Shown here in pieces: positions 46,005 to 58,872 of a DNA stretch of 64,000 nt. Below the pieces are notes generated by a model that was not told where the DNA came from, searched no databases, and saw only the letters and a program-made list of their open reading frames with translations. The stretch comes from Marinirhabdus gelatinilytica (GTDB lineage Bacteria; Bacteroidota; Bacteroidia; Flavobacteriales; Flavobacteriaceae), in the NCBI RefSeq assembly GCF_003353425.1, contig NZ_QRAO01000001.1:372001-436000 (forward strand). Reading direction: 5' to 3'. Position 1 is the first letter of the stretch. Each line of letters opens with the position of its first letter. Both the position numbers and the translations under genes were made by a program.

Positions 46005-47477
46005 ATGTTTAAAAATATTAAAGTGACTCATAGTTTTAAGGTTTATTTAGGCCTCATAGTAGCATTCTTTCTCAGGATTTTTAACCTGAATTATGAGGGG
46101 CTGTGGAATGATGAGCTCTTTACAGCGTTTTCGGCAAGTAACAGACAATCTCTGGGTTTTACTATTAAGACTGTAGCGGCAGATGTGCACCCACCTTTAC
46201 ATAATATTTTAACAAAACTATGGACAATTAACTTTGGTTTTAATGATACTTCGCTTCGAATGTTTAATGTAATGCTGGGAGTTTTGGGAGTACTCTCCGT
46301 ATATCATCTGGCAAAACTTCTTTTTAATAAAAAAACAGCAGTTTTTGCTCTATGGTTGGCAGTGTTAAACTCTTTTCTCATTTTATACAGTCAAGAAGTT
46401 CGATCCTATATGTTGCTTTTCGTGCTAGCTAATTACTCTTATTATTATTTTGTAAGACTGCTGGACAATCCCAATAAGACTAGCAACTTAGTTTATTATG
46501 TCCTTTTTAGTGCAGCAGCACTTTATACACATTATTTTGCTTTATTCATTACCATAAGCCAAGGTGTTACCCTACTAATATTAATGGATTATTCTAAACT
46601 CAAAAATAGTTGGAAGAGTTATTTGTTGATGTTTCTAGGTCCAATTTTACTTTTTGTTCCTTGGATGCCTATTTTTCTAAAGCACTTACAATATCCTTTC
46701 AGCTATATAAATGAAGCAAAAATGCATATGCTGTATAGGTTTCCTCAAGAATTCTTTAATGATAAACTTATAGGACTTTTAGTACTTGTAATAATATCTT
46801 TACTTCTTATTTATTTCGTACTACGTAAATTTTCTAAATCAACACGCTTTACAGCATATTTCACTTCTTCTCATAAATCATTAGCGATACTATTTCTTTG
46901 GATTGTTGTTTATTTTTCAATTCCTTTTGTCAAATCGTACTTATCTGATAATAATAGCAATATGAACCATAGGTATTTTATTGCTATTGTTGGTCCCATG
47001 GTATTGCTTTTAGCTTTTAGTATAGCTAAGATTAAATCCCAAAAGATTAGAACTGGAATTTTTATTGGTATTATAGTTTACAGCACCATTATATTAGCGA
47101 CAAGTGAAAAGCCTTATTTTGAAAAAAAAGGTATGTATCGTGAAATTGTTCAGTCAGCAGATGTAGATAATGGAACACCAATACTTTTCTTAACCTCAAA
47201 AGCAAGAAATTTTGACTATTACTTGAGACAAAATGGTTATAGGCAGTTACGGGCTAGGCAAAAAGATTTTGACGTATATATGAACGAGAATGACCCTGAA
47301 GAATATGTAGTTTTTATAGACTTACACCATAAAATTTATCAATTAGATAAAATATTAAAAGAGAAACAAATAGAATATGAGGGATATAGCTTATTTGAGA
47401 TGAAAGAAGCTAGAAATATGCATAAGGCAACAACTATGAGAATGTTGCATTACAAGAAGTCTAACGATTCGTTATGA
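46005..47477 (+). CDS. GT-C family (GT39-like) membrane glycosyltransferase
   Basis: 490 residues with about 11-12 hydrophobic segments. The first loop carries LWNDELFTAFSASNRQ, a GT-C acidic motif (NDE), followed by the VHPPLHNILTKL phrase and YSQEVRSYMLLFVLANYS. These are the features of lipid-phosphate-sugar-dependent transferases of the PMT/ArnT type. Such enzymes take the sugar from polyprenyl-phosphate on the periplasmic face. The last four bases overlap the UbiA gene (ATGA). Since the next four genes look like a polyprenyl-phosphoryl-arabinofuranose pathway, this is the natural candidate for the arabinofuranosyltransferase; that is inference. Confidence 0.82.
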   Translation: MFKNIKVTHSFKVYLGLIVAFFLRIFNLNYEGLWNDELFTAFSASNRQSLGFTIKTVAADVHPPLHNILTKLWTINFGFNDTSLRMFNVMLGVLGVLSVYHLAKLLFNKKTAVFALWLAVLNSFLILYSQEVRSYMLLFVLANYSYYYFVRLLDNPNKTSNLVYYVLFSAAALYTHYFALFITISQGVTLLILMDYSKLKNSWKSYLLMFLGPILLFVPWMPIFLKHLQYPFSYINEAKMHMLYRFPQEFFNDKLIGLLVLVIISLLLIYFVLRKFSKSTRFTAYFTSSHKSLAILFLWIVVYFSIPFVKSYLSDNNSNMNHRYFIAIVGPMVLLLAFSIAKIKSQKIRTGIFIGIIVYSTIILATSEKPYFEKKGMYREIVQSADVDNGTPILFLTSKARNFDYYLRQNGYRQLRARQKDFDVYMNENDPEEYVVFIDLHHKIYQLDKILKEKQIEYEGYSLFEMKEARNMHKATTMRMLHYKKSNDSL

Positions 47478-48337
47478 TGAAAATCTTCAACTTATTAAGA
47501 GTACATCAATGGGTAAAAAACCTCTTTGTATTCTTGCCAGCTTTTTTTTCGGGTAGATTACTTGAGGTTTCCTTTTTTACTGAGTCCCTTATTGCTTTTT
47601 TTCTATTTTCCTTTACAGCCAGTATTATTTATATAATTAATGACTATAAAGACATTGAAAAAGATAAGTTACACCCTGTAAAAAAGCATAGACCTTTGGC
47701 ATCGGGTGCAATTTCAAAACAGCTAGCGCTGTTACTTCTAATTCCTTTTGCAGCATTTGTGGTCATTGGCGCCTTTTATTTTTTAAGCATACAAGCGATA
47801 TTAGTATTAGTGGCATATTTTTTAATGAATCTTGCCTATACTTTTTACCTGAAAAATATTCCTATAGTAGATGTTACGATTATAGCTTTAGGATTTGTGT
47901 TTAGAGTATTGTTCGGGGGTTTTGTAGCTGTAATACTAGTGTCTAAATGGGCGCTGTTACTTACATTTTCACTAGCCTTGATTCTCGCTTTAGGAAAACG
48001 AAGAGGAGAGTTGGTTTTAATGCCAACCAATACACGTAAAGCTCTTCAGGGTTATACGGTAGAGTTTTTAAACATTGCGCTCACCATCGCTATTTCTATT
48101 ACGCTTGTTTCGTATATTATGTATAGCGTGTCTGCCGAAGTAATTAAAAATTTTGGTTCGGACTATTTATATGTCACAACTTTGTTTGTTTTAATGGGTT
48201 TACTTCGCTATTTACAGCAAAGCGTGGTCTTTAACAAAACAGAATCTCCTACTAAATTTTTATATAAAGATCATTTTGTACAACTTATGGTTTTTCTTTG
48301 GATTGTGTCTTTTTTCGTAATTATCTATTTTAAATAA
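47474..48337 (+). CDS. UbiA-family prenyl-phosphate phosphoribosyltransferase (DPPR synthase-like)
   Basis: 287 residues with about nine membrane helices. The UbiA Mg-diphosphate motif appears as NDYKDIEKDKLHP (NDxxDxxxD), with KKHRPLASG just after. The closest known homologue type is the polyprenyl-phosphate 5-phosphoribosyltransferase (mycobacterial Rv3806c), which attaches ribose 5-phosphate from PRPP to decaprenyl phosphate. Ubiquinone or menaquinone prenyltransferases also belong to UbiA, but the short protein, the RVHQWVKNLFVFLPAFFSG start and the DprE1/DprE2-like neighbours favour phosphoribosyl transfer. Overlaps the GT-C stop by 4 bases. Confidence 0.88.
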   Translation: MMKIFNLLRVHQWVKNLFVFLPAFFSGRLLEVSFFTESLIAFFLFSFTASIIYIINDYKDIEKDKLHPVKKHRPLASGAISKQLALLLLIPFAAFVVIGAFYFLSIQAILVLVAYFLMNLAYTFYLKNIPIVDVTIIALGFVFRVLFGGFVAVILVSKWALLLTFSLALILALGKRRGELVLMPTNTRKALQGYTVEFLNIALTIAISITLVSYIMYSVSAEVIKNFGSDYLYVTTLFVLMGLLRYLQQSVVFNKTESPTKFLYKDHFVQLMVFLWIVSFFVIIYFK

Positions 48338-48342
48338 ATAAG

Positions 48343-49653
48343 ATGAAAATTGAAAAAACTATTAGCAATTGGGGTAACTTTCCTAAGTTAAAAGCTTCAG
48401 AATATCTTTTTGAAAACCTTCATAAAACGCAGGGCATTTTGGAAGCTGAAGAAAGTGTTTTAGCAAGAGGAAATGGCCGCTGTTATGGAGATGCAGCATT
48501 AAACAATGCTGTGGTTTCCACTCTTTCACTAAAGCATTTTTTAAGCTTTGATGAAACTGAAGGCACTCTAACTTGTGAGGCTGGTGTGTTGTTTTCAGAT
48601 ATTTTGAACTTAGTGGTGCCAAAAGGATTTTTCTTGCCCGTAACTCCCGGCACAAAATTTATAACTGTTGGGGGCGCTATTGCAGCCGACGTACATGGAA
48701 AGAATCATCATAAAGATGGCTGTTTTTCAGAATTTGTCACGCAATTAAAATTGGTTATTGATACAGGCGAAACAATTATTTGTTCAAGAACCGAAAATAC
48801 AACGCTCTTTTGGGAGACCATTGGAGGAATGGGTCTTACGGGTATTATTGTTGAAGCGACTTTCCAATTAAAAAGAATAGCCAATTCCTATATTTATGTA
48901 GAAAGTATCAAAGCAAAAAACCTTACCGAAATCATGGCCCTCTTTGAGGCCTCTGAAGATTGGACTTACACAGTGGCTTGGATAGATTGTTTACAAAAAG
49001 GCAAACACATAGGTCGCTCTATTTTGATGCGTGGTGAACATGCTCGACCCGAACAACTTTCTAATAAGCAACAAAAAGAACCGTTTAAACTTTCGCCTAC
49101 AAAGGCTATCAAAATTCCTTTTAACTTTCCACGTTTTGTGCTCAATACGCTAAGCGTGAAGGCGTTTAATTGGCTGTATTACAACAAACAAACTCCTAAA
49201 ACCATTAAAAAAGTAACTCATTTTGAACCATTTTTTTATCCGTTGGACTCCCTATTGGAGTGGAATAGAATTTATGGAAAGTCTGGATTTATTCAATATC
49301 AATTTGTGATTCCAAAGGGTGTGGGCAAAGAGGCGCTACAAGATATATTACAAACTATAGCCAAGAGTAATCAAGGGTCTTTTTTGGCTGTGCTAAAGCT
49401 CTTCGGAAAAAACAATCCAAAGGCCTACAATTCCTTCCCAATAGAAGGTTACACCTTGGCGCTAGATTTTAAAGTGAATAAAAAATTATACAAATTAGTA
49501 CCCGAATTAGATGCAATTGTCCTAAAATATAAAGGTAGAATTTATAGGGCAAAAGACAGTCTCTCTAATGCTAGGCTGTTAGATTATGTAAAAGTGCACA
49601 ACACAAAATTCAACTCAGTTCAAAATCGAAGAATAAACAAAGCAACCCCATGA
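48343..49653 (+). CDS. DprE1-like FAD-dependent decaprenylphosphoryl-ribose oxidase
   Basis: 436 residues. FAD-binding features of the vanillyl-alcohol-oxidase family match DprE1 closely: RGNGRCYGDAALN near 42, TPGTKFITVGGAIAADVHG near 100 followed by KNHHKDGCF, and the catalytic-lysine region YRAKDS near 406. In M. tuberculosis DprE1 the cysteine that benzothiazinones modify (Cys387, in NICVDFP) corresponds here to Ala in YTLALDF. DprE1 oxidises the 2'-OH of polyprenyl-phosphoryl-ribose. Overlaps the next gene by 4 bases. Family assignment is strong. Confidence 0.92.
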   Translation: MKIEKTISNWGNFPKLKASEYLFENLHKTQGILEAEESVLARGNGRCYGDAALNNAVVSTLSLKHFLSFDETEGTLTCEAGVLFSDILNLVVPKGFFLPVTPGTKFITVGGAIAADVHGKNHHKDGCFSEFVTQLKLVIDTGETIICSRTENTTLFWETIGGMGLTGIIVEATFQLKRIANSYIYVESIKAKNLTEIMALFEASEDWTYTVAWIDCLQKGKHIGRSILMRGEHARPEQLSNKQQKEPFKLSPTKAIKIPFNFPRFVLNTLSVKAFNWLYYNKQTPKTIKKVTHFEPFFYPLDSLLEWNRIYGKSGFIQYQFVIPKGVGKEALQDILQTIAKSNQGSFLAVLKLFGKNNPKAYNSFPIEGYTLALDFKVNKKLYKLVPELDAIVLKYKGRIYRAKDSLSNARLLDYVKVHNTKFNSVQNRRINKATP

Positions 49654-50369
49654 TCATACTAGGCGCCAATTCTGAAATAGCAAGAGAGTTCACAGAGCTT
49701 ATGCTTCAAAAACAATCTTTTGTAACTGTGTATTTGCTTTCTTCAAATGCTGAGCAACTTGTTACTTTTAAGAAGCACTTAGAAGTAAAATACAAGACTG
49801 AGGTCAAAATCATTCCGTTTGATTTGATGGGGCAAATAAAGTTAGATTTTTCTGCGATGGAATATAATTTGGTTTTTAGCGCTGCGGGTTATTTGGGTGA
49901 CACAGAAGCGGGTGTTATTGCAAAAACAGAAGACATGTCACGCATTATGGCAATTAATTATTCTGGATTGGTTCATTTCCTTAATGCTGTTGCCAATGAT
50001 TTGTTGGAGAAGGAAAACGGCACCATTATTTGCATAAGCTCGGTAGCTGGTGAACGGGGACGACAGAGCAATTTTATTTATGGCAGTGCAAAGGCTGGAA
50101 TAACTGCCTATTTAAGCGGGTTGCGAAATTTTCTGTATAAGAAAAACATACACGTAATGACCGTAAAACCAGGATTTATGGATACCAAGATGACCCGTGG
50201 AATGGATCTGCCTGGCCCGTTGACTATCAATCCAAAAAAAGCAGCACACCTTATTTATTCAGGCTATAAAAAGAAGAAAAACACCATTTACATCTCGGGA
50301 ATTTGGAGGCTCATTATGTTTGTGATACGCAACATACCAGAAATTATCTTTAAGAAGCTTTCTTTATGA
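49650..50369 (+). CDS. DprE2-like short-chain dehydrogenase
   Basis: 239 residues, SDR family. Begins MIILGANSEIAREF (nucleotide-binding GxxSxIA type), with SSVAGERGRQSNFIYGSAKAG carrying the catalytic Ser/Tyr/Lys. The last of these is nearly identical to DprE2's equivalent region. DprE2 reduces the 2'-keto sugar made by DprE1, giving polyprenyl-phosphoryl-arabinofuranose. It lies between DprE1-like and a HAD phosphatase with 4-base overlaps on both sides, so all are translated together. The C-terminus is basic and may contact the membrane. Confidence 0.9.
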   Translation: MIILGANSEIAREFTELMLQKQSFVTVYLLSSNAEQLVTFKKHLEVKYKTEVKIIPFDLMGQIKLDFSAMEYNLVFSAAGYLGDTEAGVIAKTEDMSRIMAINYSGLVHFLNAVANDLLEKENGTIICISSVAGERGRQSNFIYGSAKAGITAYLSGLRNFLYKKNIHVMTVKPGFMDTKMTRGMDLPGPLTINPKKAAHLIYSGYKKKKNTIYISGIWRLIMFVIRNIPEIIFKKLSL

Positions 50370-50956
50370 GCGCACTCTATCTATACGATTTTGATGGCAC
50401 CCTAACCACAAAAGACTCTTTGTTTGCGTTTTTAAAGTTTGCAACACCTAGAGGAAAATATATTTTGGCTGTGGTTAGCCTTGCTCCGTTACTTGTCTTA
50501 GCAAAATTAGGGTTGATTTCCAAAGCTGAAACTAAGCGAAAGTTAATATCAGCCTGCTTAATGGGAAAATCGAAGACTGAACTAAGCTCACTTGCAATCC
50601 GTTTTTTTAAAAAAATTAAAGACACCCCCTTTTTTAGGGAAAAAGCGCTCGTCTCTATTGAAAACAATAAAGGTAAAGGGAAAATTTACATCGTTTCAGC
50701 ATCAGTAGATATATGGATGGAAGCTATTGCAAAGAATTTAGGAGTAGGCCTTATCTGTACTCAAGCCGACTTTAAGAATGATATTTTCAGCGGAAATTTT
50801 AAAACCCCCAATTGTAATTATGAAGAAAAACCCAAAAGAGTGCTGGCAGAAATAGATCTTAATAATTTTTCTGAAATCAATTATTTTGGAGATTCCAAAG
50901 GGGATATGGCAATGAAGTCCTTAGCAACAGCGTTCTATTTAAACCATTTTAAGTAA
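50366..50956 (+). CDS. HAD-IB family phosphatase
   Basis: 196 residues. HAD signatures: DFDGTLTTKDS near residue 8, IVSASVDIWM near 105, and GDSKGDMAM near 175; the cap is small and helical. In the arabinofuranose block it is the candidate enzyme that removes the 5-phosphate from polyprenyl-phosphoryl-ribose 5-phosphate, which in mycobacteria is attributed to an unrelated phosphatase type. That role is inferred from position. The start overlaps the SDR stop by ATGA. A gap of 67 bp with a TACATTTG box follows. Confidence 0.85.
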   Translation: MSALYLYDFDGTLTTKDSLFAFLKFATPRGKYILAVVSLAPLLVLAKLGLISKAETKRKLISACLMGKSKTELSSLAIRFFKKIKDTPFFREKALVSIENNKGKGKIYIVSASVDIWMEAIAKNLGVGLICTQADFKNDIFSGNFKTPNCNYEEKPKRVLAEIDLNNFSEINYFGDSKGDMAMKSLATAFYLNHFK

Positions 50957-51023: not shown

Positions 51024-52688
51024 TTGAAAACAATAGCTGAAAGTGCCTTTAACCACAATGGCGACCTAGAATATACATTAGAGCTTGCCAGAGCAGCCAA
51101 AGAGGCGGGAGCCGATTATTTTACCGTACAGGTAATGGATGTCGCCGCGTTTTGTGTTGAAGATTATAGCAAGTACGAGATTTATGAAAACAACACGCTG
51201 TCTTTTAAGGAATGGAGCCAAGTGTTTGCATATTGTAAAAAATTAGACCTACCCGTGATCCCCTGTGTGCTGGACATTCCCTCATTCGATTTTTGTTATG
51301 GGGAAGGCTATCGGTTTTTAAAACTTCATGCTACAGACATTACCAACAAAACGATGTTGGACAAGATGGCAACTTACAAGGATGTAACGTTCATACTGGA
51401 AACCCAATGCGCTACAAATTTGGAGATAAAATTTGCATTGGACATCATTGGCGATCAGGTGGAGTGCCTTATGCACGGTTTCAGTAATTATCCTACCGAG
51501 GTGGAAGACCTGAACCTGAATGCGCTGGATTATTTCAAGAATGAATACCCACAATACAGTACAGGATTAGCAGACCATTCCCTGGACACGGCAAATATAC
51601 CTTTAATGGCGCTGGCAAAAGGCTGTGAATATCTGGAAAAGCACATCACCCTAACCCGAAACAACCGTAAGTTCGATTATCAAGTATCGTTATATCCCCA
51701 CGAATTTGCTGTAATGGTACAACAACTAAAGCATTATCAACAAGCGTTGGGCGATTACAAAAAACACCCTACAAAAACAGAACTTCCCTACCGGGATGTA
51801 ATGTATAAAAAAGTACTGGGTGGTGGTGATTTCAAAAGAGCAGATGCTGGGGTAGATTATATCACACACCAATTCAACAATTTTAAAAGGGCAGATGTTG
51901 GCATTGCGCTCATAGCCCGCTTAAAGTCTAAAAGATTGCCGTTAAAGGTGCTTAAACCATTTGGCGGGACCAATATTATAGACTTTCTATACAAACGCCT
52001 GCAAACAGCAAAGAAGGTCAAAGACGTGTTTCTCTCAACATCGACCCTTGCCGAAGATACGTCCTTGGCAGAGGTGGGACAACAGAACGGGCACAAGGTG
52101 TACCGTGGCCACGCCGTTTCGGTACTAGACAGAATGTTGGAGCTTTCTTTGCAGGAACAGTGGGGCGCTGTTTTTAGAGTAACGGGCGACAACCCGTTTA
52201 CAGATCCGGAGTTGGTGGACGAAATGATAATGCTTATGGTTGAGAACGATCTGGATTATGTACGGGCCAACAATGTTCCCTTTGGTGTCTCTGCTGAACT
52301 GTTCAGCACCAAATACCTTTGGAACCTCTATCTACATATGGACAATCCTATGCATTCAGAATACCTCACGCTCTTTATTTTGAACGACAAAGAAGCCCAG
52401 AAAGGATGTATCGATATTGTTTCTGAAGTTGAAGACCTTAAATACATCAACCTTTCGGTAGATTACCAAGAAGATTATGATAGAGCCCTGAAACTTGCAA
52501 CTGCATTGGACGCAACCCAATTAAAAACCTGTACGTTGAAGGACATAACGGGTGTCATAGATTCCTTTAAAAGAGAAGACAAAACCAAGCTCATTAAACT
52601 TCCCGAGGGAGAAGATGTGCCATTTTCAGAGTTTTTGGAAAGGCTAGAGGAACAAGACTACATAATCAGAAAAAAAATTACGCTTTAA
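51024..52688 (+). CDS. Fusion: NeuB-type sialate synthase domain + SpsF-like cytidylyltransferase
   Basis: 554 residues. The first about 270 residues form a NeuB TIM-barrel: AESAFNHNGD at the start, HGFSNYPTEV and the metal-site phrase TGLADHSLDT. After a short linker in which FKRAD appears twice, the second half (about 295-540) is an SpsF/NeuA-type nucleotidyltransferase: ARLKSKRLPLKVLKPFGG, YRGHAVSVLDRM, FRVTGDNPFTDPELVD. The usual C-terminal SAF antifreeze-like domain of NeuB is missing, replaced by the transferase. One polypeptide may thus both make and activate a nonulosonic-type sugar. Start TTG at 51024. Which sugar is unknown. Confidence 0.85.
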   Translation: MKTIAESAFNHNGDLEYTLELARAAKEAGADYFTVQVMDVAAFCVEDYSKYEIYENNTLSFKEWSQVFAYCKKLDLPVIPCVLDIPSFDFCYGEGYRFLKLHATDITNKTMLDKMATYKDVTFILETQCATNLEIKFALDIIGDQVECLMHGFSNYPTEVEDLNLNALDYFKNEYPQYSTGLADHSLDTANIPLMALAKGCEYLEKHITLTRNNRKFDYQVSLYPHEFAVMVQQLKHYQQALGDYKKHPTKTELPYRDVMYKKVLGGGDFKRADAGVDYITHQFNNFKRADVGIALIARLKSKRLPLKVLKPFGGTNIIDFLYKRLQTAKKVKDVFLSTSTLAEDTSLAEVGQQNGHKVYRGHAVSVLDRMLELSLQEQWGAVFRVTGDNPFTDPELVDEMIMLMVENDLDYVRANNVPFGVSAELFSTKYLWNLYLHMDNPMHSEYLTLFILNDKEAQKGCIDIVSEVEDLKYINLSVDYQEDYDRALKLATALDATQLKTCTLKDITGVIDSFKREDKTKLIKLPEGEDVPFSEFLERLEEQDYIIRKKITL

Positions 52689-52689
52689 A

Positions 52690-54513
52690 ATGAAGTATTT
52701 CCTAACCGTTTTATTGTGTGTAGTGAGCATAACCAGCCTTTTATCCCAAGAACATATCTGGGATACCAATATGGACTTTACTACTGAAAATATAATGAAG
52801 GTTGTTGGGAATACACCTAAAACTATATATATATCACAAACAGTTCTTGTAAGGGACAGTGTTATAGTCCCAAAAAACATTACCCTTCAATTTACAAGAG
52901 AAGGCAAATTCCGTATTGCCAATGAGGCGACACGTCTCATTGTAAACGGCCCGATAAAAGCAGGAATACAGCATATTTTTGATGTGGGGGCCCAGGCAGT
53001 AACCTCTTACAGGTTTGAGTCGGTATCGAATATTAAAATGTCTCAGACAAACATATTCTATCCAGAATGGTGGGGTATATTTCCCGATATTATTCCTGGT
53101 CAAAATGGAGATACAGGATCAAACATAAGACACCACCTATTTATGAAAGAAATGATGCTGGATATTGCCGCATCTGGAGGCGGAACATTGCAATTTTCTG
53201 AAGGTGCTTATTATATTAGGGACATTGTTATAGACTCAAACAATATTACCGTACTCGGCAAGGGCAAAAAGACAATACTGCGTCACGATAGAACAAATTT
53301 TGGCACTTCTACAAGGCGGGGCGGAATTTTCACGATACAAGGTCCAACATTAGAAAAATACTATAGTAAGGTCTTTCCGGAAGGAGCAGTACTTGCAGGC
53401 AATTTTTTATATGATAAAGAACAATATCCCATAAGGAACATAGTAGTTAAAAACTTGGCAATTGAGTGGCACCCTGAATCTTCTAGAGAAGACCCAACAA
53501 TGAATGGCCTTACTGTAGTGAACTCTATTAACGTAAAAGTAGAAAATGTTCACGTAGATCTTGCTGGGGCAAATAGAGCATTTTATGTAGGGAGTATCTT
53601 TGATGGTGATGTAACTGAAAATGTTACTATTAAAAATTCAACAGGGATCAATTGCAGGACAGGTGTGTTTATTGTCCACGGATATGACAATAAAGATTTT
53701 ATAAGAAATAAGATGTCTTTAGGAAACATTGTAATTGAAAACAATACATTTGATCTGGTTGACCTCCCTGACCTAAATCTTAAAAATGATCATATAGTCC
53801 TAAAATATGTAGACACATACAAAACGGGAATCTATTTTATTGGTAATGAATTCACAGAAAGTTTTATGTTAGGAAACAGTTTTATTGAGCGCAACATGGG
53901 TCCAGTGAAAATAGTGAACAATACTTTTAATAATGTGGATATGGGCATACGTTCTTGGCTTCCTGGCAAAGACAAAAGAAAAAATTATAACCAAAAAGTT
54001 ACTATAGACAACAATACGTTCAACAATTTTCGATATTTTGGGATTATAGTGCCATTTTCTGAAGCAGTTATAAAAAATAACATCTTCCGTGTAAATCAAA
54101 TAACACCAGTACCCCAAGAATTTACCGATGCAAATGAAGAAGCTTTTATCGCTAGTGCTATACATATTGCAAAATCGCCTTGGAGGATATTCAAATCTAG
54201 ACAAGGACCAATGGATGTTGTAATAGAAAACAATAAAATTGAAGGGTGTTATCTTGGTGTAACGCCAATTGTAGTTCAACCCAATAACGATGGTACTGTG
54301 AAATTAATCAACAATGAAATTAGTTATGACGGTAGTTGTTCCACCCCCCAAAATGATATTGTAGTGACAACAAGCCGAAGAAAATTTCGCACAAAAAAAG
54401 CCACCATTTTTTTAGAAAATAATACAAGGGACACCAGCAACCAAAATAAAGAGAAGGCATCTATTTTTTTAGATGTCAAAAGAGAAAAGCACATTACACT
54501 TATAGAACGATAA
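52690..54513 (+). CDS. Secreted right-handed parallel beta-helix protein
   Basis: 607 residues, with a signal peptide (MKYFLTVLLCVVSITSLLSQ). The body has repeated short strands such as IVIENNTFDLVD, VKIVNNTFNNVDMG and VTIDNNTFNNFRYFG spaced about 25 residues, plus INVKVENVHVD. This is the pectate-lyase/tailspike parallel beta-helix (NTF-type turn) pattern. Such folds serve as polysaccharide lyases, epimerases or binders. It sits inside the glycan operon between two NeuB genes; the start is 2 bases after the previous stop. No catalytic residues could be assigned with confidence. Confidence 0.8.
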   Translation: MKYFLTVLLCVVSITSLLSQEHIWDTNMDFTTENIMKVVGNTPKTIYISQTVLVRDSVIVPKNITLQFTREGKFRIANEATRLIVNGPIKAGIQHIFDVGAQAVTSYRFESVSNIKMSQTNIFYPEWWGIFPDIIPGQNGDTGSNIRHHLFMKEMMLDIAASGGGTLQFSEGAYYIRDIVIDSNNITVLGKGKKTILRHDRTNFGTSTRRGGIFTIQGPTLEKYYSKVFPEGAVLAGNFLYDKEQYPIRNIVVKNLAIEWHPESSREDPTMNGLTVVNSINVKVENVHVDLAGANRAFYVGSIFDGDVTENVTIKNSTGINCRTGVFIVHGYDNKDFIRNKMSLGNIVIENNTFDLVDLPDLNLKNDHIVLKYVDTYKTGIYFIGNEFTESFMLGNSFIERNMGPVKIVNNTFNNVDMGIRSWLPGKDKRKNYNQKVTIDNNTFNNFRYFGIIVPFSEAVIKNNIFRVNQITPVPQEFTDANEEAFIASAIHIAKSPWRIFKSRQGPMDVVIENNKIEGCYLGVTPIVVQPNNDGTVKLINNEISYDGSCSTPQNDIVVTTSRRKFRTKKATIFLENNTRDTSNQNKEKASIFLDVKREKHITLIER

Positions 54514-54516
54514 AAT

Positions 54517-55551
54517 ATGACCTACGTAATAGGAGAAATAGGACAAAACCATAACGGCTCGGTAGATATTGCCAAAGCAATCATTGATGTAGTGGCAAGG
54601 CCCGTGTATGACAAACTGTTCGGTAAGGAGCTAAAGCGTATGGACGCTGTAAAGCTTACCAAACGCGATTTAGCACAGGAACTATCGGCCTCACAAATGG
54701 CTAGGCCATACGATACACCCAACAGTTTTGGAAAAACATATGGAGCCCATCGGGAATACCTGGAACTGGATGATGTACAACATTACGATTGTTACCAATA
54801 CGCTAAGGAAAAAGGGCTGGACTTTGTAGAAACGCTCTGCGCCGTAGGTTGCTTGAGCATTCTGAACCATTTTACACCAGACAGACTTAAAGTGGCATCC
54901 AGGGACCTAACCAACCTCCCACTATTGGATGCCTTGGCCCAAACCAAGATCCCCATCATTGTTTCTACGGGTATGGCAGGAGAACGGGAACTGAACGAGG
55001 CATTAGAGACACTCACGAGACATCACGAAGAGATATCTATATTACACTGTGTCTCGCAGTATCCCACAGAGTACGAGAACGTAAACCTGAATACCATTCC
55101 TTACTTACAAGAAAAATACCCGCAATACACCATTGGGTATTCAGACCATACGGTAGGTATAGCCACACCTGTTGCGGCAGTGGCCATGGGCGCAAAAATT
55201 CTGGAAAAACACATCACCCTGGACCGTCAGATGAAAGGAACGGACCAAGCAGGATCGTTAGAGATTGATGGTATCTACCGTATGATGCGCGACATAAGAA
55301 ACCTAGAGCTTTCCTTTGGTACCAAAGAAATTAAAATTGAAGACTCTGTTAAAGCAGCGCGCGAAAAACTAGAGCGGTCTATAGCCACATTACGAGCCTT
55401 GCCAGAAGGTCATATCATTACCTTAGATGATATCCATCTATTAAGCCCTGGAGATGGTATAAAATGGATGGATAAAGCTGAGGTGTTAGGAAAGAAATTA
55501 AAAAATGCCATGCCCAAGGATGAGATTATTTACAAAAGCAAACTGCACTAA
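54517..55551 (+). CDS. N-acetylneuraminate synthase family protein (NeuB-like)
   Basis: 344 residues, full NeuB architecture: TIM-barrel (MTYVIGEIGQNHNGSVD, KVASRDLTNLP, HCVSQYPTEYENVNL, YSDHTVGIATP) followed by a C-terminal SAF domain (about 285-344, ERSIATLRALPEGHII). It condenses phosphoenolpyruvate with a hexosamine-type sugar to make a nonulosonic acid (sialic, legionaminic or pseudaminic type). Unlike the fused paralogue, it keeps the SAF domain. It begins 4 bases after the beta-helix stop and its TAATG stop/start overlaps the phosphatase by one base. Confidence 0.9.
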   Translation: MTYVIGEIGQNHNGSVDIAKAIIDVVARPVYDKLFGKELKRMDAVKLTKRDLAQELSASQMARPYDTPNSFGKTYGAHREYLELDDVQHYDCYQYAKEKGLDFVETLCAVGCLSILNHFTPDRLKVASRDLTNLPLLDALAQTKIPIIVSTGMAGERELNEALETLTRHHEEISILHCVSQYPTEYENVNLNTIPYLQEKYPQYTIGYSDHTVGIATPVAAVAMGAKILEKHITLDRQMKGTDQAGSLEIDGIYRMMRDIRNLELSFGTKEIKIEDSVKAAREKLERSIATLRALPEGHIITLDDIHLLSPGDGIKWMDKAEVLGKKLKNAMPKDEIIYKSKLH

Positions 55552-56072
55552 TGGCATTACCCAAACTTGTGATAACCGATATTGATGGCGTCTGGACAGA
55601 CGGCAGTATGTATTACGATGATATCAACCAAGAATTTAAACGCTTTAACACAAGCGACAGTGTTGGAGTGCTGTTTTTAAAATATCTTGAAGTACCCTTG
55701 GTTATTATGACGGGGGAAAACACACAAATTGTACAACGAAGAGCAGAAAAATTAAAAATTTCTGAAGTGCATTTAGGTGTAAAAAACAAGTTAAAACTTG
55801 CCAAAGAAGTTTGTAGGCAATATAAGATTACCTTAGCTGAAGTAGGTTTTATTGGCGACGACATTAATGATTTAGAATTACTTCAACAAGTAGGGTTTAG
55901 TGCAGTGCCCAGCAATGCCCCACAGTACGTAAAAGACAAAGTAGATTTAGTACTACAAACTAAAGGTGGTGATGGTGCTTTCCGGGAATTCGTGGAGCAT
56001 TTGGTTTTTAAATACAGCAGTATCGAAACAATGCTTCAGCTCTATTATAAAGAAAAAAACTTGAGACAATAA
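55551..56072 (+). CDS. KdsC-like HAD phosphatase
   Basis: 173 residues of the KdsC/NeuB-associated HAD family without a cap domain. Motifs are VITDIDGVWTDGSMYYD at residues 7-23 (DxDGxxTDG), VIMTGENTQIV near 52, and GFIGDDINDLELL near 100. It removes a phosphate from the sugar acid, for instance an N-acylneuraminate-9-phosphate or similar. It directly follows the NeuB gene (TAATG overlap), which favours the nonulosonate rather than KDO role. Its C-terminus is intact. Confidence 0.9.
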   Translation: MALPKLVITDIDGVWTDGSMYYDDINQEFKRFNTSDSVGVLFLKYLEVPLVIMTGENTQIVQRRAEKLKISEVHLGVKNKLKLAKEVCRQYKITLAEVGFIGDDINDLELLQQVGFSAVPSNAPQYVKDKVDLVLQTKGGDGAFREFVEHLVFKYSSIETMLQLYYKEKNLRQ

Positions 56073-56090: not shown

Positions 56091-57545
56091 ATGGAAAAAA
56101 AGCAAGGCAAACTCGCTAGAAACGCCGCTATTTATAGCATTTTTAGCTTGTTACAACGTGGTCTGGGCTTTTTTTTGCTTCCGGTATATACCACGGTCTT
56201 AGCTACCGAACAGTTGGGTATCATAAGTACAGCTACTGCGGTAATCTCTTTTTTGGTATTGTTGTTTGGGCTTTCTTTTAGGGGGTCTACTGCCTATTAT
56301 TATTACGAGTATAAAGATGAAAACCTGCCATATCTCAAGAAGTTGTACGGTACGAGCGTTGTTTTTGTTATACTGTGTTCCCTCGGGGGAATCGTGCTGT
56401 TGCTGCTTACCAAACACTGGGTTTTAAATACCCTGTTTGAAAACATCCCTTTCTATCCCTACGTGCTCTTGGCACTGGCCAGTATTTTTTTACAACCGCT
56501 CTATTTTTACTACCAATCTATCTTAAAAGCCAAACAAAAAGCCAAAAGGGCCTCGTTTTTGGATTTTGTGTATTTCGCCGTAATGATTGGTCTTACCTTA
56601 GTGCTCATTCTAGGGTTTAATTTTCGGGCAGAGGGTGCCCTATTAGCCAATGCCGTGGCAAGCCTGCTCGTTTTTTGTATAAGTGTAGTAGGGCTATGGG
56701 AAGAAATCACACTTTGCTTTGTTCCCGCAATTTTAAAGAAAGTACTCAAATACTCATTGCCACTATTGCCCCACAACCTATCGGGTTGGGCTATGAACAT
56801 GGTAGACCGTGTTATGTTAAATGCCATAAACTCACTGAGCGTTGTTGCTCTGTTCGATGTAGGTTCGCAAATAGGAAAGGTAGTAAACATGATTTCCCTT
56901 GGGGTAAACTCTGCTTATGCCCCTTGGTTTTTTGACCAAGTAAAGAACAATGCCAACAGCAAAAAGAATATTGTTTCTGTAACCGAGAAAATAGTTATCC
57001 TCTATACGGTGGTAGCTGTGTGTGTAAGTTGGATCGCTCCAGAATTATTGCAACTCATAAGTAAACCTGCCTATCATGAATCGTGGACAGTTACCCCGCT
57101 CATCGCTATGGCATTTGTGATAAATGGCTTTTATTTTACCTTCAGCAGTGTGTTTTTTTTGGAGAAAACCAAATACCTTCCTTTTTTGACCCTAAGCGGC
57201 GCAGCGGTAAACATTGCCCTCAATTATTTTTTGATCCAGGAATACGGCTTTATGGGCGCTGCTATCGCAAGCTTATGCACAAAGATTTTCTTTACTGCGC
57301 TTACCTATTACTTTAGCCAGAGTATATTTTACATCCCTTATAATCTCAAGGTTATTTTACTGGTTATTGCCACAGGGGGAGCCCTTTCTTCCCTGCCTTA
57401 TATAATCCAACCCTATATTATTGGATACAATCTATTGCTGGTGACAGGTATAAAGTTGTTAATTCTAGCTATTTTTGGGGGGTATTTTGCATTTAAAAAC
57501 CTACAAACCATAAAAAGTTATCTAAAACCGAACAATGGTCCTTAA
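56091..57545 (+). CDS. Polysaccharide flippase, Wzx-type
   Basis: 484 residues with about 14 hydrophobic segments, of the MATE-like oligosaccharide flippase family (Wzx). The start KLARNAAIYSIFSLLQRGLGF is characteristic. It should move the lipid-linked repeat unit to the periplasmic face, and with the Wzy-like proteins downstream and the Wzz-like protein upstream it indicates a Wzx/Wzy-dependent route. The next gene overlaps its end by 11 bases. There is no unusual residue. Confidence 0.93.
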   Translation: MEKKQGKLARNAAIYSIFSLLQRGLGFFLLPVYTTVLATEQLGIISTATAVISFLVLLFGLSFRGSTAYYYYEYKDENLPYLKKLYGTSVVFVILCSLGGIVLLLLTKHWVLNTLFENIPFYPYVLLALASIFLQPLYFYYQSILKAKQKAKRASFLDFVYFAVMIGLTLVLILGFNFRAEGALLANAVASLLVFCISVVGLWEEITLCFVPAILKKVLKYSLPLLPHNLSGWAMNMVDRVMLNAINSLSVVALFDVGSQIGKVVNMISLGVNSAYAPWFFDQVKNNANSKKNIVSVTEKIVILYTVVAVCVSWIAPELLQLISKPAYHESWTVTPLIAMAFVINGFYFTFSSVFFLEKTKYLPFLTLSGAAVNIALNYFLIQEYGFMGAAIASLCTKIFFTALTYYFSQSIFYIPYNLKVILLVIATGGALSSLPYIIQPYIIGYNLLLVTGIKLLILAIFGGYFAFKNLQTIKSYLKPNNGP

Positions 57546-58872
57546 GAATGTCCTGCAAGAAATTGAAAGTGAATATGCGGTTGAGAGCATTATTTTAAGT
57601 GACGGTACTCCTGTTTGGCCGTTATTAAGGCAGGCGATTTATTTCAAAATACAGCAAAAGAAGGTTCAGTATAGCAACAAGCTTCGAACACGGAACAAAA
57701 AACAGTTGCTCAAGAATTTTTTTTATGGATTTCCCCATGTCTTTCAACTTAAAAAGTTTCAATTTATATTTTTTAACAATACAGATAAGCGCGTTCTTAT
57801 AAACAATACATATTTTGATATCTTTCAAGATGCTTGGGCAGATAAGGTAGGCCAAAGGAAAAGTTTTTTTATAGAGTGGGCCAAACAAGCACACTTGCCT
57901 AAAGACAGAGTGCATTCCGAAAATGTAACATCAGACCTTCCTTTTAAACTGGTGGTGGGGATTGTGAGTAAATTCAAAACAATCTCAATCAAAAACGAAC
58001 ATCTTCTCAAGGAAATTTTAACACAACAAGGAATTTCCTTTGACTATTCAAAAGAACTAAAATCAAAACTGGCCGAGATTTCTGTTTTTTCCAGACTCTT
58101 TAAAATAATGGAGCCCAAAGCTATTTTTGTGTTGAGTAGTTTTACCAAAATAGGAGTGGTGAGAGCTGCAAAACAATTGGCTATTCCCGTATTTGAACCT
58201 CAGCATGGTTTTATTGGCGATACCCATCCCTTTTACCATGCCCTTAAAAAATTTCCAGATTTCTATCCAGATGTTTTATTAAGCTTTGGTGCTTCTGAAA
58301 AGATTATAAATAAGAGAACACTTGTTTTTTCTTCTGAAAATATAATTCCAACAGGCAGTTTACAGCTAGATTTGGTACAAGAAAGAGCACTCCCTGATAA
58401 ACTGAAAGAGCTTAAGGCAAAATATAGACTATTGTTTTGTGTAACACTTCAGGCAATAAAAGATAAAGAAATACTCTCTTGGGTAGAAGGCCAAGCAAAA
58501 TCCAATAAGGATTGGCTCTTTATTGTTAAGCCCAAGCAACCAAACTTTACTCTTTCCCTCTATACTTCAACAGCAAATGTTATTACTTTGTCAGAGATCT
58601 CCACCTACGATGTGTTGAAAGCGAGTGATTATAATATTACAATCTTCTCAACCACTGTGATTGAAGGAATATTTTTGAAGGCAAAGCCCTTGCTGTATAA
58701 TGTTGATGATTTACCAAAGAAATATTTTGACTTGTCCACAAGCACTATTGCCCTTATCAACAACGGGGAACCAATAACAGAAAAACACCTAGACAAAAAA
58801 GGGAATTTTACAACCCCTTATTTTGTGAGTGGATATTTTAAAAATGTTGAAAGCGCATCGCTATGTTTTTAA
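57535..58872 (+). CDS. GT-B-like surface-polysaccharide glycosyltransferase (unassigned)
   Basis: 445 residues without signal peptide. The phrases FEPQHGFIGDTHPFYH near 220 and TIFSTTVIEGIFLKAKPLLYN near 385 resemble the C-terminal GT-B active site of capsule-type transferases (CDP-glycerol glycerophosphotransferase and polysialyltransferase-like). I cannot name the substrate, and weaker similarity to other families is possible. AT-rich like the arabinofuranose block. It overlaps the flippase stop by 11 bases and the next gene by 10, so it is translated in a chain with them. Confidence 0.65.
   Translation: MVLKNVLQEIESEYAVESIILSDGTPVWPLLRQAIYFKIQQKKVQYSNKLRTRNKKQLLKNFFYGFPHVFQLKKFQFIFFNNTDKRVLINNTYFDIFQDAWADKVGQRKSFFIEWAKQAHLPKDRVHSENVTSDLPFKLVVGIVSKFKTISIKNEHLLKEILTQQGISFDYSKELKSKLAEISVFSRLFKIMEPKAIFVLSSFTKIGVVRAAKQLAIPVFEPQHGFIGDTHPFYHALKKFPDFYPDVLLSFGASEKIINKRTLVFSSENIIPTGSLQLDLVQERALPDKLKELKAKYRLLFCVTLQAIKDKEILSWVEGQAKSNKDWLFIVKPKQPNFTLSLYTSTANVITLSEISTYDVLKASDYNITIFSTTVIEGIFLKAKPLLYNVDDLPKKYFDLSTSTIALINNGEPITEKHLDKKGNFTTPYFVSGYFKNVESASLCF

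Follow-up and report, generated by a model that had tools for sequence, protein, structure and literature searches.

Described NeuB-type synthases, such as N. meningitidis NeuB (1xuu/1xuz) and C. jejuni PseI (8h2c), have PEP residues in their barrel and a full SAF domain, whose Arg314 is given in the available part of PMC6795526 as the residue reaching into the partner's active site in the N. meningitidis enzyme. Ser213 is listed among the ligand contacts of NeuB in the same partial text, and in the available part of PMC7371886 the NeuB positions 110, 129, 131, 132, 182 and 184 surround PEP. Activation of a nonulosonate by an SpsF-type enzyme is described for the legionaminic pathway of Bacillus subtilis, in which SpsE and SpsF are encoded by separate genes and, as far as the available part of PMC7439481 extends, no PEP-less NeuB partner is described. 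From Leptospira borgpetersenii come a NeuB chain of 290 aa without SAF (6ncs) and an SpsF-type cytidylyltransferase (6oew). Bacteroides thetaiotaomicron reportedly has a KDN pathway (cited in PMC6200933), whose KDN-9-P synthase and phosphatase correspond in kind to those encoded beside the gene studied here.

In the window, i.e., the whole analyzed stretch of 64,000 nucleotides from Marinirhabdus gelatinilytica, one gene joins both kinds of domain in a single chain (Table 1). Its start codon is TTG, with ATG at the same position in two relatives that were read directly. The Pfam scan found NeuB (PF03102) at residues 25-246 and CTP_transf_3 at residues 298-432 (131.8 and 65.9 bits against cut-offs of 22.1 and 22.6), and no SAF domain. 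In an AlphaFold2 model built from 18 aligned fusions (mean pLDDT 87.8, pTM 0.61), residues 1-246 had their best structural match in 6ncs (Z 30.3, rmsd 2.1, 242 aligned), with 1xuu beside it (Z 30.2, rmsd 1.9, 241 aligned), and the C-terminal half, at residues 289-523, was best matched by 6oew (Z 26.9, rmsd 2.3, 229 aligned). Pfam and structure comparison thus agree with the statement of an earlier note on this DNA that a NeuB barrel is joined to an SpsF-type transferase without SAF, and a NeuB with SAF is encoded nearby. The barrel fold, the metal histidines, E25, K129 and D247 are common to the fusion, N. meningitidis NeuB and PseI. However, the fusion differs from both Leptospira proteins: 6ncs is unfused and keeps its PEP-site residues (KFQ, ILSRG, GYSDHS), and 6oew is a separate chain with an REH motif (H at the fusion's Y447). 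Against the equivalog model TIGR03569 the fusion scored 156 bits and its canonical neighbor 253, both below the cut-off of 399.65. The fusion probably activates a sialic-acid-like sugar from the neighboring gene rather than making it.

Table 1. Features of the fusion gene and its locus in the window.
Feature	Positions	Strand	Basis or remark
Fusion ORF, PEP-less NeuB-like barrel + SpsF-type cytidylyltransferase (predicted), 554 aa	51024..52688	+	stop included
NeuB-like barrel, residues 1-250	51024..51773	+	Pfam, alignment, model, structure match
Linker, residues 251-291	51774..51896	+	alignment and model
R272 codon	51837..51839	+	invariant 18/18; placed on SAF Arg314 in three of four alignments
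SpsF-type cytidylyltransferase domain, residues 292-519	51897..52580	+	Pfam, alignment, structure match
C-terminal extension, residues 520-554, with KLP motif	52581..52685	+	alignment
Canonical NeuB + SAF, predicted KDN-9-phosphate synthase, likely the real synthase	54517..55551	+	Pfam, alignment
KDN-9-phosphate phosphatase	55551..56072	+	NF058599, 236 bits vs cut-off 180
BFO_1060-like glycosyltransferase, candidate nonulosonate transferase	57535..58872	+	weak, 26 bits vs cut-off 200

The fusion is rare: counting the window's own genome, it was present at full length in 4/5 genomes of the genus sample and in 3/395 of the phylum sample, and in the order sample (n = 395) the only full-length match was in the window's own genome. 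A scan of GTDB genomes yielded 17 loci, 16 with an intact fusion and one with a broken fusion, and all loci with a named group belonged to Bacteroidota. These 16 intact fusions, the window copy and a copy from genome G395 make up the alignment of 18 used throughout. No relatives were found in one scan of IMG/VR, and all plasmid matches were below 60% identity; the one that was read, from Neorhizobium, consists of an ordinary NeuB and a separate lone SpsF. Because full length is kept in 18 genomes, the fusion is neither chance nor a gene-calling artefact; the earlier note had named such an artefact, with independent genes for the halves, as a refuting case, and only the part concerning the existence of homologous halves as separate genes holds. 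Across the fusions, the NeuB half was more conserved than the SpsF half (mean pairwise identity 57.7% vs 51.2%; invariant positions 61/250 vs 44/263), and dN between the window copy and the locus L041 was 0.044 and 0.116, respectively, the dN/dS ratio being unusable because dS is saturated in most comparisons. A pseudogene reading was rejected, the NeuB half being the more conserved one. In searches of the open-licence PMC literature, nothing on this fusion or on a PEP-less NeuB was recognized. A connection to the ela genes (8-epilegionaminic acid) was also dropped after a look at the literature, as ElaA is described as a putative oxidoreductase.

With N. meningitidis NeuB as the numbering reference, the active-site alignment revealed both replaced and retained residues in the barrel. 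T34, C81, A103, E126 and A183 of the window copy stand at K53, T110, S132, S154 and S213, and all 18 fusions have T, C, A/G, E and A at these positions. By contrast, K53, K129, S132, S154 and S213 were kept in ordinary NeuBs (24/24 canonical, 5/5 SAF-less and 2/2 reverse-fusion NeuBs, and 13/13 further canonical ones, 44/44 in total). The replacement residues T34, C81, E126 and A183 are themselves invariant in the fusion family. K53 and S154 are positions that we take to be PEP contacts. The window copy retains E6, Q36, K100, Y156, H185, E205, H207 and D218, and E25, Q55, K129, Y186, H215, E234, H236 and D247 of the reference are retained in 18/18 fusions, including the metal histidines H215/H236 with E25 and D247. 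As these changes occur in 18/18 fusions against 44/44 ordinary NeuBs that keep the residues, most of the PEP surroundings have been replaced, and the fusion barrel appears to have lost the PEP site, although a PEP site may have been rebuilt from other residues. The NeuB half is probably repurposed rather than dead, since it retains the metal and sugar-side residues and exceeds the transferase half in conservation.

Concerning the linker, the earlier note had suggested a small internal duplication of an FKRAD phrase. The first phrase (residues 269-277) falls on a conserved R-x-x-x-G site, and at the second (residues 287-294) the relatives read FKKEDVG, FQRADVG, FNKENVG, FKKENIG or YDKSKVV; because the second phrase varies in this way and is no conserved copy, the duplication was abandoned and the repeat is regarded as coincidence. 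R257, K262 and R272 of the linker are invariant in the fusions. In three alignments (MAFFT, hhalign) R272 was placed on the arginine of the SAF KRPGTG segment, but a later MAFFT alignment gave a different register in which the R272-Arg314 pairing was not reproduced. As the register held in three alignments and was lost in the fourth, we go no further than suggesting that the linker is a shrunken SAF remnant that retains its arginine.

In the transferase half, the motif A-R-x-x-S-x-R-x-x-x-K plus D389 and D480 is invariant in 18/18 fusions (the window copy retains R299, S302, R304, K308, D389 and D480), and presumably this nucleotide motif and the two acidic residues have functional roles in SpsF-type transferases. 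With these motifs intact, the half does not look dead. The fusion lacks the IQAR and EHV motifs of lone SpsFs and has I297 and Y447-L448 instead. Among the partnered SpsFs (18 fused and 5 paired), Y447-L448 occurs in 23/23 and I297 in 22/23, and all 23 carry K525 and P527 in a C-terminal extension, while lone and reverse SpsFs have Q and H-V in 7/7 and are mostly without the extension; three of three additional lone SpsFs agree with the lone signature. The pair of genome G544 departs from the partnered signature and has E at the expected D389 position. This distribution suggests that SpsF residues have co-adapted to a NeuB-like partner.

A separate NeuA, which the earlier note had named together with a catalytically dead transferase half as a refuting case, was not found in the window genome, where PF02348 finds just the fusion and a KdsB-like protein. 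In 8/18 fusion genomes the CTP_transf_3 matches are likewise the fusion and one strong match, taken as KdsB on the basis of reading the window genome's copy; in each of the remaining 10, one or two more matches are present. The KdsB-like cytidylyltransferase of the window genome (contig C3, L004:319-2178, minus strand, 619 aa) is itself fused to an apparent iron-type alcohol dehydrogenase, a part labeled by reading, and frames of similar size occur in G395 and G745-G747. We assume that this protein might belong to an 8-amino-Kdo type pathway.

Genes for KDN-9-P synthase and phosphatase accompany the fusion in 16/18 loci. Two loci deviate: L048 has a NeuB of legionaminic type, and in L054 no canonical NeuB lies within the 15.7 kb stretch, two being found elsewhere in the genome. 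Every fusion genome (18/18) has another NeuB at E < 1e-60. The neighbors, with an NF058599 phosphatase over its cut-off, indicate KDN instead of the ManNAc-type substrates that had been supposed. By the KDN-locus genes, the other NeuB and the scarcity of other CTP_transf_3 matches, the transferase half is the best candidate for the CMP-KDN synthetase. CMP activation, as claimed in the earlier note, is therefore retained by inference from the intact motifs, the KDN locus and the lack of any other non-KdsB cytidylyltransferase in the genome. Between the fusion and the synthase, a 607-aa protein (window 52690-54513) without Pfam or NCBIfam match keeps its place in the genus relatives. At window 47474-50956, genes for a UbiA-type decaprenyl-phosphate phosphoribosyltransferase, a DprE1-like, a DprE2-like and an HAD-IB protein stand in a row, the first three scoring below their equivalog cut-offs; the set is of polyprenyl-phosphate-arabinose type, inside a Bacteroidota polysaccharide locus.

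The KDN-9-P phosphatase model was over its cut-off in 11/395 genomes of the phylum sample, and the surroundings were read for all 11 and for two genomes just below the cut-off. Among the 11, the fusion occurs in G000, G404 and G409, a lone SpsF in G678 and G666, and a reverse SpsF-NeuB fusion in G087 and G719. In G072, G460 and G568 a SAF-less NeuB is accompanied by a NeuA-like protein, either fused or separate, and the contig of G577 is too short to judge; G588 and G554, below the cut-off, resemble G072, the NeuA-like labels being given by eye. The reverse fusions (L090:5869-7614 in G087 and L091:8846-10639 in G719) likewise unite these two domain families in a single chain, but in the opposite order, with a SAF-length tail and with intact PEP-site residues, and might plausibly be true bifunctional synthase/CMP-transferases. 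In L092, L094, L096 and L097 a SAF-less NeuB of 287-296 aa adjoins a protein of 383-394 aa whose C-terminal part matches KDN-9-P phosphatase, in L094 with an N-terminal KdsB-like match, giving a CMAS-like architecture.

Genes of the YhcH/NanQ anomerase family (PF04074) were located directly upstream of the fusion in 5/16 other loci (L046, L049, L050, L051, L055) and beside an unfused SpsF and NeuB-like pair, described below, in 3/6 pair genomes (G033, G049, G544). Such genes also stand beside SpsF at L101, L102 and L103, inside nonulosonic-acid biosynthesis loci. In the title of Kentache et al. (2021), a reference cited in PMC13214540, YhcH is described as an anomerase that gives open-form Neu5Ac to the aldolase. 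Given this description and the position of the genes, it may matter at the activation step in which ring form the free acid is present. However, this theme of free sugar handling is not uniform, as no YhcH-family gene was found in the window genome.

The unfused pair bears on the origin of the fusion. In five genomes (G033, G049, G089, G395, G397) SpsF precedes a divergent NeuB whose tail is of SAF length, and a sixth, G544, has the NeuB-like gene first, which is the order of the fusion. Both members of the pair have altered active sites: the five aligned pair NeuBs keep K53 and have D/E at K129, G/T at S154 and A at S213. The pairs adjoin aminotransferase, acetyltransferase and NeuB genes, read as legionaminic type. 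G089 has a second pair (L104:1041-2842) beside another NeuB gene, with a protein nearby that is PseG-like by eye. The fusions form one clade in the tree of each half, and fusions and pairs lie together on one side of a branch (support 100/99 for NeuB and 100/98 for SpsF, with long-branch warnings from the tree program for both trees). By these trees, the fusion shares ancestry with the SpsF and PEP-less NeuB-like pair of legionaminic-type loci. In L048 the fusion sits inside a locus otherwise matching the pair-carrying L039/L040 (aminotransferase 58.6%, NeuB 64%), a Rosetta-stone case that links the two halves. The fusion of Flagellimonas meridianipacifica (L057) is cut to an N-terminal remnant of 112 codons, after which comes a lone SpsF from the other clade; KDN synthase and phosphatase are intact there, and the gene downstream is 45% identical to the gene beside the intact Arenibacter fusion (L056). 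The replacement supports CMP activation as the job common to the fusion and this lone SpsF, and with a lone SpsF in place of the broken fusion, the NeuB half can evidently be lost.

The reading that we prefer, at somewhat better than even odds, is that the fusion is a CMP-nonulosonate synthetase (CMP-KDN here) whose PEP-less NeuB barrel handles the free acid as partner of the transferase. The neighboring NeuB with SAF would make the nonulosonic acid as a 9-phosphate, the neighboring phosphatase would free it, and the C-terminal SpsF-type domain would move CMP from CTP onto the free acid. The N-terminal barrel would descend from a synthase, having lost the PEP site and kept the metal and sugar-side pocket, and would bind, select or condition the free acid. 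The comparisons support the fold, the replaced PEP site, the partnership and the pathway context; we infer the CMP-KDN activity of the transferase half, and the free sugar acid as ligand of the barrel is conjecture. Against this reading counts that L057 and other KDN loci use a lone SpsF without a NeuB-like half, and judging by these loci (L057, L088, L089) the NeuB half may be dispensable or have a purely structural role.

A stronger form of the preferred reading, possible but with the odds against it, makes the NeuB half an enzyme that acts on the nonulosonic acid through a new metal-dependent chemistry without PEP and feeds the transferase by, e.g., ring-form or anomer interconversion, C4 epimerisation via retro-aldol/aldol, or a pyruvate-type aldol reaction. 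The equivalents of E25, K129, H215, H236 and D247 conserved alongside a remodeled PEP site argue for it, as do the YhcH/NanQ genes near fusions and pairs, but loci with YhcH already have an anomerase, the substrate is putative, and in L057 a lone SpsF has replaced the fusion. It is likewise possible, again with the odds against it, that the NeuB half is catalytically inert and serves the CMP-KDN synthetase in oligomerization, stability or regulation. Vertebrate CMAS, which carries a phosphatase-like domain, offers a comparison, similar phosphatase fusions occur in the same phylum, and a lone SpsF is enough in L057, L088 and L089; however, the 61/250 invariant positions, including both metal histidines and the new pocket residues, are more than a scaffold seems to need, and the unfused pair likewise keeps the metal and sugar-side residues. 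The bifunctional enzyme of the earlier note, with PEP condensation in the NeuB half, activation in the SpsF half and a site closed without SAF, is very improbable: although the barrel and Mn-ligand residues are retained, and intact PEP sites are seen both in SAF-less NeuBs (5/5 compared; 6ncs) and in reverse SpsF-NeuB(SAF) fusions, the PEP-site residues have changed in 18/18 fusions, E for S154 included, and each of the 18 genomes encodes a canonical synthase, adjacent in most loci, so that synthesis in the same chain finds no support.

Returning to the preferred reading, we tentatively propose, as its less assured extension, that pair and fusion form an undescribed two-part family of Bacteroidota CMP-nonulosonate synthetases, in which a PEP-less barrel would do a new metal-dependent step on the free nonulosonic acid, concerning its ring form, anomer or C4 stereochemistry, and hand it to a co-adapted SpsF. 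If this is true, a synthase has turned into a product-handling enzyme for the next step of its own pathway. NeuB is often used as a marker gene for nonulosonic-acid synthesis, and a NeuB-fold lineage apparently outside PEP chemistry would mislead NeuB-based annotation, since public models score the fusion as NeuB. Should the barrel indeed use the free acid as its ligand, a pathway enzyme would have been recruited to the following step, and the fusion would represent a new CMP-sugar synthetase design for CMP-KDN and CMP-legionaminic acid.
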